A stretch of 64,000 nt of DNA, from positions 372,001-436,000 of the forward strand of contig NZ_FNOH01000006.1 in assembly GCF_900106535.1 (NCBI RefSeq), read 5' to 3'. The translations under genes and the position numbers were made by a program. Position 1 is the stretch's first letter. Each line of letters begins with the position of its first letter. The stretch comes from Myxococcus xanthus. GTDB lineage: Bacteria; Myxococcota; Myxococcia; Myxococcales; Myxococcaceae. Below the pieces are notes generated by a model, which saw only the letters and a list, made by a program, of their open reading frames with translations, had not been told where the DNA came from and ran no database searches. Shown here piece after piece: positions 7,874 through 45,660 of this stretch.

Positions 7874-9295
7874 ATGACCACGCACTCAATTCGCACCCGC
7901 CTTGTCGCGCCCGCGCTGATGGTGCTCGGGATGCTGTCCACGCCTGCCTTCGCGGCCGCTCCCGCCTCGGCGCCCACCAAGGAAGCGCCTCCGGCCGCCG
8001 CCGCGCCCAAGCCCTTCAAAGTCCCCGTCCGCACGGAGTTCACGCTCGACAACGGGCTGGAAGTCTCGCTGCTGCCCTACGGCGACATGCCGAAGGTCGC
8101 CATCCAACTGGCCATCGACACCGGCAACATCCACGAGAAGGCCACGGAGACGTGGCTGGCGGACCTGACGGGAAAGCTGCTGTCGGAGGGCACCACCACC
8201 CGTTCCGCGGAGCAGCTTGCCCAGGCGGCCGCGCAGCTGGGTGGTTCGCTCAACATCGGCACGACGATGGACCAGACCTATGTCGGTCTGGAGGTCCTCT
8301 CCGAGTCGGCGCCGGACGCCGTGGCCCTCATCGCGGACGTCATCCAGAACCCGGCCTTCCCGCCGGCGGAGGTCGAGCGCGTCAAGGGCGACCTCGTGCG
8401 GGAGATGGCCATCTACAAGAGCCGGCCGGGTACGCTCGCCGACGAGCGGCTGCTCCAGTCGCTCTACGGTGACCACCCGTATGGCCGCTACTTCCCGCCG
8501 GAGGCCCAGCTCAAGGGCTACACGCCGGAGGCCGTCCGCGCGCACTACGACGCCAACATCGGCGCGGCCCGGGCGCGGCTGTACGTCGTCGGCCGGTTCG
8601 AGCCGGCGCCGGTGGAAAAGGCCATCCGGGACGCGTTCACCGGCTGGAAGGCCGGCGCGGCGCGCCTCCGGAACGTGCCCAAGCAGAAGGTGGCGAAGGC
8701 GGTCCAGTTCATCGACCGCCCCGGCTCGGTGCAGTCCACGGTGCGCGTGGCGGTGAAGGGCCTGCCGCCCTCCAGCCCGGACTACGTCAAGCAGACGGTG
8801 ATGAACACGCTGCTCGGTGGCTACTTCAGCTCGCGCATCACCGCGAACATCCGCGAGGCGAAGGGCTACACGTATTCGCCCTACAGCGATGTGTCCACGC
8901 ACCTGGAGGACGCCTACTGGGTGCAGAACGCGGACGTGACGACGGCCGTCACGGGCGAGTCGCTGAAGGAGATCCTCAAGGAGGTGGCCACCCTGCGCAA
9001 GACGCCGCCGCCCGCGGACGAGCTGAGCGCTGTCCAGAGCTATCTGGCGGGCTCCTTCCTGCTCCAGAACTCGTCGCGCAGCGGCATCATCTACCAGCTC
9101 CGCTTCGTGGACCTGCACGGCCTGCCTGATTCGTATCTGCAGAACTACGTGCAGTCGGTGATGGCCGTCACGCCGGAGCAGGTGCAGCAGCTGGCCGCGA
9201 AGATGCTGACGCGTGAGGCGATGACCTTCATCGTCGTGGGCGACCAGAAGTTGGTGGCGCCGCAGCTGAAGGTCGTATCCCCCGCGCTGAAGTGA
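7874..9295 (+). CDS. M16 peptidase homologue, inactive partner subunit
   Basis: The 473-residue protein has an N-terminal signal peptide (hydrophobic VAPALMVLGML, cleavage after AFA) and two M16 domains. Where the active partner has HLFEH, this one reads WLADLTGK, so zinc ligands are missing. The C-terminal M16 region keeps the substrate-binding RxxxY features (GKGYTYSPYSDV-like segment near 330). It follows the active subunit by 12 bases and surely is cotranscribed. By analogy to the alpha subunit of mitochondrial processing peptidase, it would bind substrates for the first subunit. That pairing is inference from gene order and motif loss. Confidence 0.92.
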   Translation: MTTHSIRTRLVAPALMVLGMLSTPAFAAAPASAPTKEAPPAAAAPKPFKVPVRTEFTLDNGLEVSLLPYGDMPKVAIQLAIDTGNIHEKATETWLADLTGKLLSEGTTTRSAEQLAQAAAQLGGSLNIGTTMDQTYVGLEVLSESAPDAVALIADVIQNPAFPPAEVERVKGDLVREMAIYKSRPGTLADERLLQSLYGDHPYGRYFPPEAQLKGYTPEAVRAHYDANIGAARARLYVVGRFEPAPVEKAIRDAFTGWKAGAARLRNVPKQKVAKAVQFIDRPGSVQSTVRVAVKGLPPSSPDYVKQTVMNTLLGGYFSSRITANIREAKGYTYSPYSDVSTHLEDAYWVQNADVTTAVTGESLKEILKEVATLRKTPPPADELSAVQSYLAGSFLLQNSSRSGIIYQLRFVDLHGLPDSYLQNYVQSVMAVTPEQVQQLAAKMLTREAMTFIVVGDQKLVAPQLKVVSPALK

Positions 9296-10064: not shown

Positions 10065-10676
10065 ATGTCCCTGCTCGATGACTTGCTCAAGAAAGGCTCG
10101 CTCCACACGCCCTGCGGCACGGCGGCGCGGCGGGCCGCGCTCAAGGCGAAGCTGACGAACTCCGGCGCCACGGAGGTGGTGTCCGGAGACTTGAAGCTCT
10201 CCGAGGGGGATGACCGCGTCCTGGAAGCGTCACGCGTCGTGGTGAAGGGGAACCTGGTCCTGGAGGACCAGTCCCGGCTGCTCGTCGCGGGTGACCTGGA
10301 GGTGGAGGGCAGCATCATCCACGAGGGCTTCGACTACGCGCTGCTCTTCACGGGCGGCGCGCTCTCCGCGAAGAACCTGCTCTTCCACGGTGAACTGGTG
10401 TCGCTGGGCCCCATCACCGTGCAGCAGGTGGCGTGGACCTACTACAACGACTACTCGACCTACTCGGATTCCCTGAAGGCGAGAATCGTCGTGGCGGCTG
10501 ACCGCTTCGACGCGGTGGATGACGTGCAGGCGGACCACCACTTCAATGGACACCCCAGTGACATTCGTGAGGCGCTGGCGAAGCAGCTGAGCGCGGACGT
10601 GGTGGACGCCGACGGCGACTGGTCCTACGAAGAAATCGCGAAGCACCTTCTTCGCGGGCGAGCCCTGCTTCGCTGA
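10065..10676 (+). CDS. beta-solenoid-like hypothetical protein
   Basis: The 203-residue protein has a short helical cap, then a run of strands of the form VVVKGNLVLEDQSRLLV and GDLEVEGSIIHEG, which looks like a short beta-solenoid similar to the polymer-forming (bactofilin-like) fold. The C-terminal third is helical and acidic. A Cys at residue 17 is the only one. It lacks a signal peptide, so it is probably cytosolic. It lies between two SUKH-like genes, and proteins of this type occur in immunity-gene clusters, but a role in toxin neutralisation here is inference. The ribosome binding site is weak, and the ATG is the first in the frame. Confidence 0.7.
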   Translation: MSLLDDLLKKGSLHTPCGTAARRAALKAKLTNSGATEVVSGDLKLSEGDDRVLEASRVVVKGNLVLEDQSRLLVAGDLEVEGSIIHEGFDYALLFTGGALSAKNLLFHGELVSLGPITVQQVAWTYYNDYSTYSDSLKARIVVAADRFDAVDDVQADHHFNGHPSDIREALAKQLSADVVDADGDWSYEEIAKHLLRGRALLR

Positions 10677-10719
10677 AGGGGCTTGGCGGGGCACACGGAT
10701 TCGCTAGCGTGCGCGCATC

Positions 10720-11268
10720 ATGGCCAATACGTCGAATGAGAATGCGGTGGCGGAAGCAGTGAAGCGGCTCAAGTCCCTGGCGGAGGAGATCGAGGACATG
10801 AGCATCGAGTTCTCCACGCCCGTGACTGCCGACGAGGTGGCGCAGCTGGAGAAGAAGTTCAAGCTGAAGCTGCCTCCCAGCTACGTGCACTTCATCAGCA
10901 CCTACGGCACCTTCAAGGTGCTGCACGGTGGGCGGGAGCTCATCGGCATGGAGGAGCCGGGCTTCCTGCGTGCGGCGGCGCCGGACCCGTCGGACGCGGT
11001 CAACGGTGACGACCCGGAGGTGGAGGAGGCCATCAACCAGGCCCTGTTCTTCCAGCGCGCGGATGACGACGCGGTGGACAACTTCTGGTGCTTCAACCCG
11101 CGCGACGTCACGCCGGAAGGCGAGCTGGGCGTCGTGGGCTACTACCACGACGAGGCCTTCGACCTTTCCCCGCGCCTGGGAACGGAGGACGCCGAGCACT
11201 TCCGGGATTTCTCGGCGCACATCGTCAGGGTCATCGACGCGCTCATCGAGAACTTCGCGGAAGCGTAA
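10720..11268 (+). CDS. SMI1/KNR4 (SUKH) family protein
   Basis: The 182-residue protein is a clear SUKH-family member: FSTPVTADEVAQLEKKFKLKLPPSYVHFISTYGTF carries the LPxxYxxFxxxxGxF signature (about residues 30-70), written here in two parts: LEKKFKLKLPPSYV then HFISTYGTF. The protein ends in an acidic helix. No signal peptide or membrane segment is seen. SUKH proteins neutralise nuclease or deaminase toxins, or have housekeeping scaffold roles. No toxin gene lies beside it, so the target is unknown. It is 43 bases downstream of the beta-solenoid gene on the same strand and likely shares its transcript. Confidence 0.85.
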   Translation: MANTSNENAVAEAVKRLKSLAEEIEDMSIEFSTPVTADEVAQLEKKFKLKLPPSYVHFISTYGTFKVLHGGRELIGMEEPGFLRAAAPDPSDAVNGDDPEVEEAINQALFFQRADDDAVDNFWCFNPRDVTPEGELGVVGYYHDEAFDLSPRLGTEDAEHFRDFSAHIVRVIDALIENFAEA

Positions 11269-11277
11269 GGCGCGGCG

Positions 11278-11303
11278 GAAGCCCGTGTTGCTGCACGGGC
11301 TTC
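11278..11303. terminator. terminator hairpin after the SUKH gene
   Basis: GAAGCCCGTG (11278-11287) pairs with CACGGGCTTC (11294-11303), ten perfect base pairs around a 6-base loop, between two convergent genes. No long U-run is present. Confidence 0.6.
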
Positions 11304-11319
11304 GTCGAGGCTCCGTGAC

Positions 11320-11814
11320 TCAGAGGCAGTTGCCCAGACCTTCGTAGAGGGGGGTCTGGGTGCGCGGCAGCGTGGCGTAGAGCGGAGACGTGCCCGCGAG
11401 CGCTGTCAGGAACTCCTGAATCGTGGTGCGCGGGGCGACAGGCACCTGGCAGGCCCAGGTCCGCGCATCCACCGTCACCGAACCCGTCGCCGGGTCGACT
11501 TCCTCGTTGCTGGCGGCGAAGACCCAGACGCACTGGCCCATCCGGCCCGTCAGGGCATTCACGGAGCAGCGGAAGCGCAGCGACTCGATGTTGCTGTATT
11601 CGCCCTCGCAGAACGTGTCGCCGCAGATGTCATCGAAGTTCTGCTTCAGCGAGGCCCGGAGCTGGTACCACGCCTCGATGTCCGCCTTCGACGTCAGGTA
11701 GGCGGAGACGTCCACATACGAGTTGGCGATGGTGTCCCCGGACGCCAGGGCAGACATCGGCGCAAGAAAAGACAGACTCAGGGCGGCAATGGAAAACGGG
11801 GAGGAGAGGGGCAT
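11320..11814 (-). CDS. secreted Cys-containing hypothetical protein
   Basis: The 164-residue protein begins with a Sec signal (hydrophobic SIAALSLSFLAPMSALA, residues about 6-23, cleavage near ALA-SG). The mature part has six cysteines in pairs (ICGDTFC, RCSVN, QCVW, ACQV, GNCL), suggesting a small disulfide-bonded periplasmic or extracellular domain. Length and arrangement recall lineage-specific myxobacterial secreted proteins; no enzyme motif is visible. It is transcribed alone, convergent to the SUKH gene. Confidence 0.7.
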   Translation of the reverse strand: MPLSSPFSIAALSLSFLAPMSALASGDTIANSYVDVSAYLTSKADIEAWYQLRASLKQNFDDICGDTFCEGEYSNIESLRFRCSVNALTGRMGQCVWVFAASNEEVDPATGSVTVDARTWACQVPVAPRTTIQEFLTALAGTSPLYATLPRTQTPLYEGLGNCL

Positions 11815-34742: not shown

Positions 34743-35876
34743 ATGATGTCAGTGAAGGTCATGCGGCGGTGGTCGACAGTTGGCGCGATGTCGTTGCTGG
34801 TCGGTTGCGGTCCGGAGATGGTCGAGGAGCAGGCGGAGTCGGTGGCGCCGGCGACCATCGAGCAGGACATCGTCGGTGGCACCACCACGACCATCAATGA
34901 GAATCCGTGGCAGGTGTCCCTGCGGTACGGCGGCCACTGGTGCGGTGGCTCCATCCTCAACAAGGATTGGATTCTGACCGCGGCGCACTGTGTGGATGGC
35001 TACGCCGTCACCAGCATCGTGGCGGGCTCCACCTCGAGCACGAGCACGAGCACGGGCCAGACGCGCAACGTGGCGCAGACCATCATTCATGAAGATTACG
35101 GCGCTTCCGGCAACGACGTTGCCCTGCTCCGTCTGGCCACGTCGCTGGACCTCAATGGCACCACCGTCGCGGCCATTCCCCGCATCTCGGCGGCGGATGC
35201 CGCGAGCGGCGCCACCGACCCGGCCGTGGTCGCGCGCGTGACGGGCTGGGGTGCGACCTCCTCCGGTGGTTCGGGGTCCGCCACCCTGCGCACGGTGGAC
35301 GTCAACGTGATTTCGAACACGGAGGCGCAGCAAAGCTACCCCAATGAGTACATTGGCCCGGATCAGATTGGCGCCAAGGCGCCGGGCAAGGACTCGTGCC
35401 AGGGCGACAGCGGTGGTCCGCTCACCGTCAATCACAATGGCACCCGCAAGCTCGCGGGCGTCGTGAGCTGGGGCTACGGCTGCGCCGACGCGCGCTACCC
35501 GGGTATGTACGCGCGCGTGTCGTACTTCGAGAGCTGGATCGACTCCAAGCTCAGTGGGACGACCCCGCCGCCCGGCACCACGCTGCTGACCCAGACGAAC
35601 CTGTCCGGCTCGTCCAGCACCTGGAAGCACTTCGCCATCACGGTCCCCAGCGGCACGACGTCGCTCAAGGTGGTGCAGTCGGGGGGCTCGGGTGACGCGG
35701 ACCTCTATGTGCGCAGCGGCTCGCAGCCCACCACCAGCGCCTACAACTGCCGGCCCTATCTGGCCGGCAACGAGGAGACCTGCTCCTTCTCCAACCCCCA
35801 GGCTGGCACCTGGTACGTGTCCGTGCGCGGCTATTCGTCCTACTCGGGCGTGTCCGTGACGGCCACGATTCCGTAA
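34743..35876 (+). CDS. trypsin-like serine protease lipoprotein with PPC domain
   Basis: The 377-residue protein has a lipoprotein-type signal ending SLLVGCGP and a short propeptide, then the activation site DIVGGTTTT (Ile about 43). The chymotrypsin-fold triad is complete: His 82 (TAAHC), Asp 125 (GNDVALL) and Ser 223 (GDSGGP). Residues about 285-377 form a PPC (prepeptidase C-terminal) beta-sandwich of the kind cleaved off or used for secretion in predatory and extracellular proteases. It is expected at the cell surface or outside. A strong hairpin follows its stop. Confidence 0.94.
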
Positions 35877-39898: not shown

Positions 39899-40213
39899 AT
39901 GAAGAATGGCCATGGACGTTGGTTCGCGTGGATTGCTGGCGTGGTGCTGTTGGTGGGATGCGGCCCCGCCGATGGAGAGGCACCACAGCCGGGCGAACCG
40001 GTCGAGGAGGAATCCTCTCCGCCAGGGATTCCCGCCGAGTATCTCGGTGAGGGCGAGGTCGAGAGTTCCGCCATCTGTTGCAACGTCAAGTGCAGCGGGA
40101 CCTGGTACGGGCCCTTTCCCTCCATCAAGTATGACCTGTGCGCGAAGTACGGAAGGTACTACTGCCCGCAGAAGAAGCTCACCTATCAAGGGCACGCCTG
40201 GCGGAACTGCTAG
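39899..40213 (+). CDS. Cys-rich mini-lipoprotein 1
   Basis: The 104-residue protein has a lipoprotein signal (GVVLLVGCGPADGE), an acidic Pro/Glu linker and a compact C-terminal domain of about 47 residues with six Cys: ICCNVKC, then C at YDLCAK, YYCPQ, and final RNC. AGGATTCC, 5 bases upstream, is a good site. It is a tandem paralogue of the next gene, aligning over the whole Cys domain. Predicted location: outer membrane or surface. Confidence 0.75.
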   Translation: MKNGHGRWFAWIAGVVLLVGCGPADGEAPQPGEPVEEESSPPGIPAEYLGEGEVESSAICCNVKCSGTWYGPFPSIKYDLCAKYGRYYCPQKKLTYQGHAWRNC

Positions 40214-40251
40214 CCATTGTCAGTGTGCAAGGACACGTGAGGGCTGAAACC

Positions 40252-40572
40252 ATGAGAAATCAAATGAAGAGCACGTTGCCGCTGTGGATGGGGGCGCTGT
40301 TGGCTGTGGGGTGTGGTGGCCCGCTGCCCGAGGAGTCGCAGGAGCCGCAGGAGTCCATCGCCATTCCAGAGCAGTACCTGGAACAGGCGGACCCCAGCAC
40401 CGAGGATGGAACGGTCAGCGCCCTCAAGGCCTGCTGCTTCATCCGGTGCTCCGATAAGGTCTGGAGAGGTCCCTATCCCAATGTCGTGTATGGCAACTGC
40501 CGCAACCACGGAAAGTACCAGTGCGCGAAGCGGGGGCTGGGCTATGCGGGTGCGGATTGGAAGGACTGCTAG
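40252..40572 (+). CDS. Cys-rich mini-lipoprotein 2
   Basis: The 106-residue protein has a lipoprotein signal (LLAVGCGGPLPE), an acidic linker and the same six-Cys domain as its neighbour: ACCFIRC, GNCRN, YQCAK, WKDC. The spacing of cysteines and the Tyr/Trp positions (Y-x-G-K/R-Y-x-C and G-x-x-W) agree with the first copy. A start at ATG 40264 is also possible. It likely lies in one transcript with the first copy (38-base gap). No function is known. Confidence 0.75.
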   Translation: MRNQMKSTLPLWMGALLAVGCGGPLPEESQEPQESIAIPEQYLEQADPSTEDGTVSALKACCFIRCSDKVWRGPYPNVVYGNCRNHGKYQCAKRGLGYAGADWKDC

Positions 40573-43341: not shown

Positions 43342-43710
43342 ATGCCCCCCGAGCGAATCAACCGCGGTGATGTGTTCTGGGTGGAGCCCGACGACTCACG
43401 AGGCCCGGTCCCCAGCTATTCGCACCCCCACGTGGTGGTTCAGGACGACGTCTTCAATCACTCACGCATCACGACGGTGGTCGTGTGTGCGCTGACGTCG
43501 AACCTGCACCGGGCCAGCGAGCCGGGGAACGTGCTGCTCGAAGTGGGAGAGGGAAACCTCCCCAAGCAGAGCGTCGTCGTCGTGTCGCAGGTGTCCTCGG
43601 TCGACAAGGCGCGTCTGGGAGAGCGAATCGGGGCGCTGTCGGACGCGCGGGTGGAACAGATTCTTGCCGGCCTGCGCTTCCAGCAGGTGTCGTTCTTCGC
43701 GAGGCCGTGA
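43342..43710 (+). CDS. MazF/PemK-type endoribonuclease toxin, solitary
   Basis: The 122-residue protein has the MazF/PemK core: GDVFWVEPDDSRG at the start, HPHVVVQDDVFN and TTVVVCALTSN mid-protein (the region that holds the conserved Thr/Ser near the active-site Arg), and a C-terminal helix. Such toxins cleave mRNA at specific sequences. No antitoxin gene precedes or follows it: the upstream bases hold only a truncated SRPBCC gene. This matches the solitary MazF-mx of Myxococcus xanthus, which from memory is about the same length and in which MrpC acts as antitoxin and activator. No canonical MrpC site (GTGTC-N8-GACAC) was seen upstream. A clear terminator follows. Confidence 0.88.
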   Translation: MPPERINRGDVFWVEPDDSRGPVPSYSHPHVVVQDDVFNHSRITTVVVCALTSNLHRASEPGNVLLEVGEGNLPKQSVVVVSQVSSVDKARLGERIGALSDARVEQILAGLRFQQVSFFARP

Positions 43711-45279: not shown

Positions 45280-45660
45280 ATGAAGGTGAACTCCCGGGGA
45301 TACTTGGCGTCGCTCGCCGTCATGACCTTGAGCAGCGTGGCCTGCGGTGATGTCGACCCTGAAGAGGCCGTGACGATATCGCAGGGGGTCTATGGGATGA
45401 CCTCCTATGTCAATGACGTGTGTTCTTCTGGGTGTGAGCGCGAGCCGCGGTCGATGACCTTGCTGGTCAAGTCACTGCCCCAGGACATGGACGTGGTTTC
45501 CGTGACATCGAACAAGGATGGCTTCTACGAAGCCTCGCTGGTCCTGGGGGACTATCGAATCTGCACGACGTTCGGGCGTTGCACGGACTTCTCGGTGGGC
45601 ATCAATGAAGTGGTTCGCCTTGACTACGAGATGTCGGTGGGGCCGGGGTGGTCGAGGTAG
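45280..45660 (+). CDS. small lipoprotein with Cys pairs
   Basis: The 126-residue protein has a lipoprotein signal ending SVACGD (Cys about 22) and a mature domain with two Cys pairs (DVCSSGCE and RICTTFGRC). The C-terminal half is beta-rich. It lies just after the 44-residue peptide and may be cotranscribed with the sigma operon. The ribosome binding site is weak. No domain is recognised. Confidence 0.65.
   Translation: MKVNSRGYLASLAVMTLSSVACGDVDPEEAVTISQGVYGMTSYVNDVCSSGCEREPRSMTLLVKSLPQDMDVVSVTSNKDGFYEASLVLGDYRICTTFGRCTDFSVGINEVVRLDYEMSVGPGWSR

Follow-up and report, generated by a model that had tools for sequence, protein, structure and literature searches.

Two adjacent genes on the forward strand of a Myxococcus xanthus contig, here called A and B, encode small lipoproteins that constitute a real, conserved and uncatalogued family, larger than the initial annotation of this DNA had described. 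The pair lies in a stretch of 64,000 nucleotides (the window, to which all coordinates refer unless a locus is named) from a genome of 9.26 Mb, and it exemplifies a wider superfamily whose members formed tandem pairs on more than one occasion. The anatomy of both proteins is well supported, while their function, partner and target are inferred. Tentatively, and with a confidence that stops short of even, we favour a reading in which A and B form an outer-membrane, disulfide-stabilised binding pair, drawn from a Myxococcaceae superfamily with a movable third bridge and repeated tandem pairing.

Layout and kinship of the two genes

Gene A, the upstream member (39899-40213, + strand), is an open frame for a 104-residue lipoprotein, backed by relatives in Myxococcaceae and by dN/dS. 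Its signal peptide (39899-39961) carries the lipobox LVGC and ends with the codon of the lipid-modified Cys21, with Gly at +2 and Glu at +7. It is followed by a Cys-free acidic linker of 38 residues and net charge -10 (39962-40075) and by a six-cysteine domain of 45 residues and net charge +6 (40076-40210), delimited with AlphaFold2 and the alignments A3 and A4. After a gap of 38 nt (40214-40251) comes gene B, the downstream member (40252-40572, + strand), which encodes a 106-residue lipoprotein paralogous to A. Its signal peptide (40252-40314) has the lipobox AVGC, again with the lipid-modified Cys21 as last codon, +2 Gly and +7 Glu; its linker (40315-40431) has 39 residues, a net charge of -8 and no Cys, and its six-cysteine domain (40432-40569; AlphaFold2 on the B domain alone) has 46 residues and a net charge of +5. 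The two genes are likely co-transcribed, to judge from this layout, and at all 16 loci where it was measured the gap between genes of A-B type is 7-50 nt, taking the nearest usable start.

The tandem pair had been placed at 39899-40572 by the initial annotation, which proved exact, and both genes do encode lipoproteins with a lipobox and Cys21. It had further claimed that the C-terminal 47 residues align in every Cys. The alignment holds, with six of six cysteines matched between the domains across a single one-residue gap and CC-x3-C present in both, but the length does not, the distance from CC to the C-terminus being 45 residues in A and 46 in B. The GxxW...C ending described there is right for the pair, since both proteins end in GxxWxxC, yet only partly so for the family: across 39 distinct A/B-branch domains, picked by a pattern requiring the Cys and the last Trp, the Trp and the final Cys are invariant and the Gly of GxxW is not. 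Besides the required residues, one Gly is invariant in the 39-domain alignment.

That the pair is a duplicated module is borne out by BLASTP, which aligns A with B at E 4e-18 with 36 of 113 columns identical. When the B domain was shuffled with its cysteines fixed, 0 of 20,000 sequences reached the observed A-B score (z 8.4). Gene A is under purifying selection, with dN/dS of 0.03-0.30 in 4/4 comparisons with close relatives; for B the ratio was 0.27-0.36 in three of four such comparisons and 0.69 in the fourth (L009), which has only 7 substitutions behind it. In all eight comparisons nonsynonymous changes per site are fewer than silent ones.

Instead of the unrelated domains or the known characterised family that the initial annotation had named as counter-evidence, we found homologous domains and profile libraries without a family for them, and its view that no known family covers the pair agrees with the lack of a significant match in Pfam, NCBIfam, PHROGs, PADLOC and PDB. 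Pfam and NCBIfam gave nothing above the curated cut-off for A, for B or for five remote members, and only scattered matches (best E 0.0071) for the sets of 31 and 28 rows; PHROGs and PADLOC held no significant entry for the A/B family, and PDB sequence searches with A, A3 and A4 returned no match. LvhB7 (E 0.016 over 12 residues), PHROG 26370 (5/39 members, best E 0.0076) and NCBIfam invert_tail (9/31, best E 0.0081) were taken as chance or signal-peptide matches. The PDB search with A5 gave an antibody match at E 1.2, due to chance, and that with A8 a single match at E 6.2, which was also set aside. A tblastn search of plasmids and phages and two scans of viral contigs found no relative, their matches being chance ones at E 2 or worse.

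Cysteine framework and predicted fold

AlphaFold2 on A (31 rows) predicted the domain as a block with pLDDT 88-97, composed of strands at residues 59-65, 68-73 and 96-103 and a helix at 81-91, in the order strand-strand-helix-strand; residues 20-40 had pLDDT under 50, which suggests that the linker is disordered. The B domain (39 rows) was predicted in the same order with a mean pLDDT of 90.3 and pTM 0.72. The structure prediction proposed in the initial annotation thus yields the same confident fold for both domains, from two runs that are not independent since their input alignments share most rows. Foldseek listed no match at E 0.001 or better (0/13, 0/125 and 0/52 of the matches listed), and the best VIA-align Z scores were 3.4 and 4.2. 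We do not regard this lack of a convincing match as proof of a new fold. The best overlay, among Foldseek's own matches only, was T7 Gp2 (PDB 4llg, 4lk0; Z 4.2, rmsd 2.1, 44 residues), which shows 7% identity and no known shared Cys frame; such a Z is common according to the tool, and the likeness is probably at chance level.

Five residues hold through the alignments, namely the C-x3-C of strand 1, the C-x7-C of the helix and a Trp in the last strand. The core C-x3-C ... C-x7-C is present in 99 of 102 distinct profile hits, the other three being broken frames; these hits were chosen without a Cys pattern, the superfamily profile itself having been built from sequences with such a core. In the A/B branch the spacing CC-x3-C-x(14-20)-C-x7-C-x(14-15)-C fits 39 of 39 domains, with C1 immediately preceding the core and C6 following the Trp at a distance of three residues. 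C1 lies two positions further on in two relatives, so that the same strand face is kept, and in a second branch one extra Cys precedes the core by nine or ten positions and its counterpart directly precedes the Trp.

Of the 102 hits, 93 have a single extra Cys ahead of or within the core and a single one behind it. Three related sequences (L142, L145 and L146) are without C1 and C6, two of them with two further Cys near the end; two (L135 and L247) are of an 8-Cys type that breaks the rule, in which three additional Cys lie close to the core and none follows it; and four are broken frames. An earlier count (both C1 and C6 in 74/77 domains, neither in 3/77) was partly circular, most domains having been picked by patterns that required those Cys. 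The joint presence or absence of C1 and C6 suggests that they bridge each other, leaving C2 and C3 to bridge C4 and C5, and this is suggestive rather than proof because the joint loss was probably one event. Three disulfides with this pairing are what we infer, and the initial annotation's disulfide-bonded module is probably correct, given six domain Cys, Cys-free linkers, a confidently predicted fold and a third Cys couple that is present or absent jointly.

The alternative that the six Cys bind metal is very improbable. AlphaFold cannot distinguish metal sites from disulfides, and the protein is Cys-rich as a metal binder would be, but it is exported into an oxidising compartment, and three relatives lose two of the six Cys together, with four left.

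Within the A/B branch a lipobox Cys was scored by script in 41 of 42 frames, one of them falsely (the A copy of L078, whose frame is broken and whose lipobox is out of frame), and the one frame without it is L089, with a stop in the linker. The linker is Cys-free in 40 of the 41 lipobox frames, the 41st being that same L078 copy. Net charge ranges from -5 to -13 in the linker (40 frames) and from +1 to +6 in the domain (41 frames). A linker motif, IPxxYL, is found in A and B (within 39899-40569, + strand) and in many Myxococcus members, with IPxxYI in the divergent L143 and L144; IPxxYL occurs in 8 of 78 lipobox frames near family loci, all 8 being members of the A/B family, and it was not used because it is missing from several genera.

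Distribution, duplication and the wider superfamily

A scan of genome contigs with A alone returned two Myxococcus loci, the closest named relatives being Myxococcus sp. CA023 (97%) and M. xanthus AM003 (95%), and a Calditrichales match confined to residues 4-28 in the signal peptide. A single-protein search gave matches in 35 of 96 Myxococcaceae genomes, some in signal peptide and linker only. The domain profile A3 detected members in at least 25 of 195 Myxococcota genomes, all of them Myxococcaceae; the A3, A5 and A6 scans scored the best 34-35 candidates per genome, so the genome counts are lower bounds. Ten of the 35 genomes lie outside these 25, their matches (E 1e-4 to 0.009) falling mostly in the signal peptide or linker, and one of the ten, G070, holds a remote member. 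In the profile searches, which covered Myxococcota genomes, the A/B family was seen only in myxobacteria, and its genes are often side-by-side pairs: two adjacent members stand in 17 of the 25 genomes carrying the A/B branch, and 8 are without an intact adjacent pair. Such frequent adjacency is a hint that two unlike copies work together. In the genome of the window only A and B were found by the A5 and A6 scans. Decayed copies occur as well: about 20 C-terminal residues of A are left as a relic beside an intact B in L085, and there is a remnant in L091, a linker stop in L089 and a truncation in L090.

In the trees, the upstream gene of each pair was labelled A and the downstream one B. In the tree of 39 domains, 14 upstream genes of distinct pairs fall on one side of a branch (85/94, not starred), which indicates an early duplication whose gene order has been retained. 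For the 18 B rows two changes are required, and a single B clade is not rejected (p-AU 0.165). A starred group (99/98) of seven A rows in the wider tree is placed among B rows, so that A may be the derived copy; 54 and 58 columns underlie these trees, in which many of the forks are open. An upstream and a downstream type, distinct from each other, have thus long kept their order in different genera. Although tandem duplication is a common event, two distinct copies long retained in a fixed order argue for joint action, and the many singletons argue that pairing is not obligatory.

The neighbourhood in the window, with TetR, desaturase, WD40, MazF and trypsin genes, is common, with gaps, to 6 of 25 loci compared (L009, L010, L071, L074, L085 and L092). 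At the remaining 19 loci different genes surround the family members, and neighbourhoods differ outside close Myxococcus. Several nearby features deserve mention in their own right. At 43342-43710 (+) lies a gene for a MazF/PemK-type toxin of 122 residues (Pfam PemK_toxin, E 1.1e-24) with no evident antitoxin partner beside it, which is probably the developmental MazF of M. xanthus, MXAN_1659. Literature searches, in which the locus tags of A and B were estimated from that of MazF, found no paper on the A/B genes. A trypsin-type lipoprotein with a PPC domain is encoded at 34743-35876 (+; Pfam Trypsin, E 4e-55); by gene order only, it may be the vesicle protease MXAN_1650 described in PMC4158809. 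The segment 39421-39640 (+) looks like the deletion remnant of a gene for a 463-residue lipoprotein without a Pfam match, which is open in G077 (L092:8267-9658) and that the window matches in pieces only. At 45280-45660 (+) a 126-residue lipoprotein with four Cys and no Pfam match is conserved in L009, L074, L085 and L092 and is not a member of the A/B family by profile. In L071 a DDE transposase (10301-11665) stands just downstream of B, in place of the WD40 gene of the window.

Other small Cys-rich lipoproteins also accompany some pairs. Near the pair in G071 there are two frames with other Cys patterns (L073:8238-8498 and 8578-9015), and beside the pair in G059 a small 8-Cys lipoprotein (L078:9107-9391) containing C-x3-C and N-C-x7-C, which may be a remote member (E 0.083). 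The pattern was first noticed by eye and then put to an exploratory test: we counted six Cys-rich small lipoproteins within 1.5 kb of family genes (72 kb; expected 0.82, P 2e-4), compared with 5 in 430.5 kb of more distant sequence and 9 in control regions totalling 796 kb. Roughly half of the controls, and no fewer than one of the six (L079), resemble spurious frames; another of the six is the possible remote member in L078.

The wider superfamily came to light through G033, a weak match of the single-protein search (E 0.0054), which is a lipoprotein with the A/B Cys frame. As a query it brought up further types and also recovered the A genes of three genomes and the singleton of a fourth (E 7e-5 to 3e-4). 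The A4 profile, run on L036 and six further loci, gave E values of 0.028 for L135, 11 for L134 and 24 for L036, and no match reaching E 50 in L136-L139; L134 was retained because of its Cys frame, and its membership was borne out by later searches. Stepwise profiles A5 and A6 matched in at least 34 and at least 42 of 195 Myxococcota genomes. G166 (E 0.005), outside Myxococcaceae, was set aside as a frame with two stops. The superfamily was detected with A6 in at least 41 of 96 Myxococcaceae genomes, leaving 55 without a match at E 0.01, where presence is a lower bound. On the fetched loci A6 produced 258 matches below E 0.01 in real frames and 0 in reversed ones; only this zero is informative, as the loci were fetched for their matches and many overlap.

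Profile-profile comparison suggests that the A/B branch is related to the other branches beyond the Cys frame. With separately built alignments, hhalign gave 93.5% (P 2e-7) for the A/B branch against the second branch, and 93.7% (P 2e-7) against a mixed set of nine divergent members, which had been gathered with the help of the A/B-branch profile. Nulls in which the Cys columns were kept and the rest permuted (30 each) reached at best 18.1% and 5.3%. The second branch against the mixed nine directly was weak (5.6%, P 0.007).

Among 31 loci of the second branch that were read, 19 have two adjacent members, 11 have one and one (L185) holds a broken copy; ten profile matches added late comprise eight single second-branch genes, one of another type and one of the 8-Cys type. 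A single clade of A and the second-branch upstream genes is rejected (p-AU 0.0011), as is a single clade for all second-branch upstream genes (p-AU 0.0018), so that the duplication in the second branch took place separately from that of A and B. The two genes of the L238 pair are nearest relatives (96/90), which may reflect a third duplication or gene conversion. The charge of the second-branch domains ranges from -2 to +3 among the pairs measured, and charge is therefore not a shared principle.

Possible function and known systems

Sorting residues bear on where the proteins may reside. In M. xanthus lipoproteins, according to PMC3222651, Lys at +2 tends to go with the inner membrane and Ala at +7 with the matrix (8 of 12 and 7 of 10). 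A and B have Gly at +2 and Glu at +7, and over 41 rows +2 is Gly in all 41 and +7 is Ala in 3. These residues fit sorting of A and B to the outer membrane under that rule and give the surface location proposed in the initial annotation partial support. The adhesive, antagonistic and signalling roles that it put forward stand as candidates.

In the binding-pair reading, each product would be a compact strand-strand-helix-strand module held at the predicted outer-membrane location by an acidic tether of ~38 residues that is probably disordered. The genes would be an old duplicate pair, most likely co-transcribed, and the products would probably act together on a ligand located at the envelope, whether by forming a heteromer or by each supplying half of a binding unit; A and B show no evident catalytic motif. 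The superfamily frame would be C-x3-C on strand 1, C-x7-C on the helix and the movable third bridge C1-C6, with tandem pairs evolved in more than one branch.

A plainer account, unlikely in our view but of some weight, would give A and B a structural or stress-related role as small lipoproteins in the periplasm or outer membrane, without an outside partner, their two copies serving divided labour or dosage rather than a heteromer. Singletons do occur, one member can decay while the other stays (L085), and the L238 sisters look like a recent pair; the constant order of two distinct types in different genera, the recurrence of pairing in another branch, and the lack of the family from many Myxococcaceae (55/96, as above) speak against it, the last meaning that the family is not essential. 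Slightly less credible is a defensin-like weapon, in which a cationic antimicrobial domain, neutralised by the acidic linker, would be displayed on the outer membrane or on vesicles and act by contact or after cleavage on competitors or prey. The small Cys-rich cationic domain behind an acidic linker in the A/B branch, the patchy distribution with decayed copies, and the fact that myxobacteria do encode defensins (PMC11561630 and PMC8819291) agree with such a role. It is countered by the second branch, which is not cationic, by the purifying selection on A and B, by the neighbourhoods compared, in which no processing, export or immunity gene accompanies the pair, and by the published cis-defensin Cys expression, which fits 0 of 77 domains. 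We regard as improbable a lipid-anchored protease inhibitor shielding the cell's own surface from secreted predation proteases: its size and disulfide-rich make-up would be usual for inhibitors, and the trypsin-type lipoprotein gene lies 4 kb upstream, but that gene is absent beside the pair in other neighbourhoods, no reactive loop can be named, and Kunitz and Kazal spacings fit none of 39 domains.

If the binding-pair reading is right, its genetic prediction is that A and B act together. The defined domain and the predicted disulfide map offer a handle on part of the unannotated small lipoproteins of myxobacteria, and the separate evolution of tandem pairs within one superfamily of small proteins would provide a natural test of how two-part envelope modules arise. 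A bolder extension, which we consider doubtful, is that this superfamily, known to date from Myxococcaceae alone, combines a disulfide framework of its own (the fixed core plus the movable third bridge) with what may be a new small fold and has repeatedly given heteromeric outer-membrane recognition units for cell-cell or predator-prey contacts.

Among known systems, the cis-defensins (CS-alpha-beta; xanthusin-1), as presented in PMC11561630, resemble the predicted A and B modules in being small and Cys-stabilised, with one helix on a sheet, and in occurring in myxobacteria as an exported precursor. Their Cys expression, C-x(2,18)-C-x3-C-x(2,12)-C-x(4,17)-C-x-C in the same source, fits 0/39, 0/29 and 0/9 of the domains studied here, and their order is helix-strand-strand, whereas A and B are predicted as strand-strand-helix-strand and are lipoproteins. 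In beta-defensins CC ends the Cys frame, an arrangement found in 0/39 domains here, where CC opens it. Kunitz and Kazal domains share with A and B a length of about 50 residues and the three disulfides that are putative in A and B, and differ from all 39 A/B-branch domains in the spacing of their Cys. The Sit-type contact toxins of myxobacteria combine a lipoprotein toxin with a cognate immunity gene; the A/B pair has no accompanying non-homologous partner gene in the neighbourhoods compared. With the outer-membrane lipoproteins of Myxococcus listed in PMC3222651, A and B share the lipobox and the sorting residues of that class.
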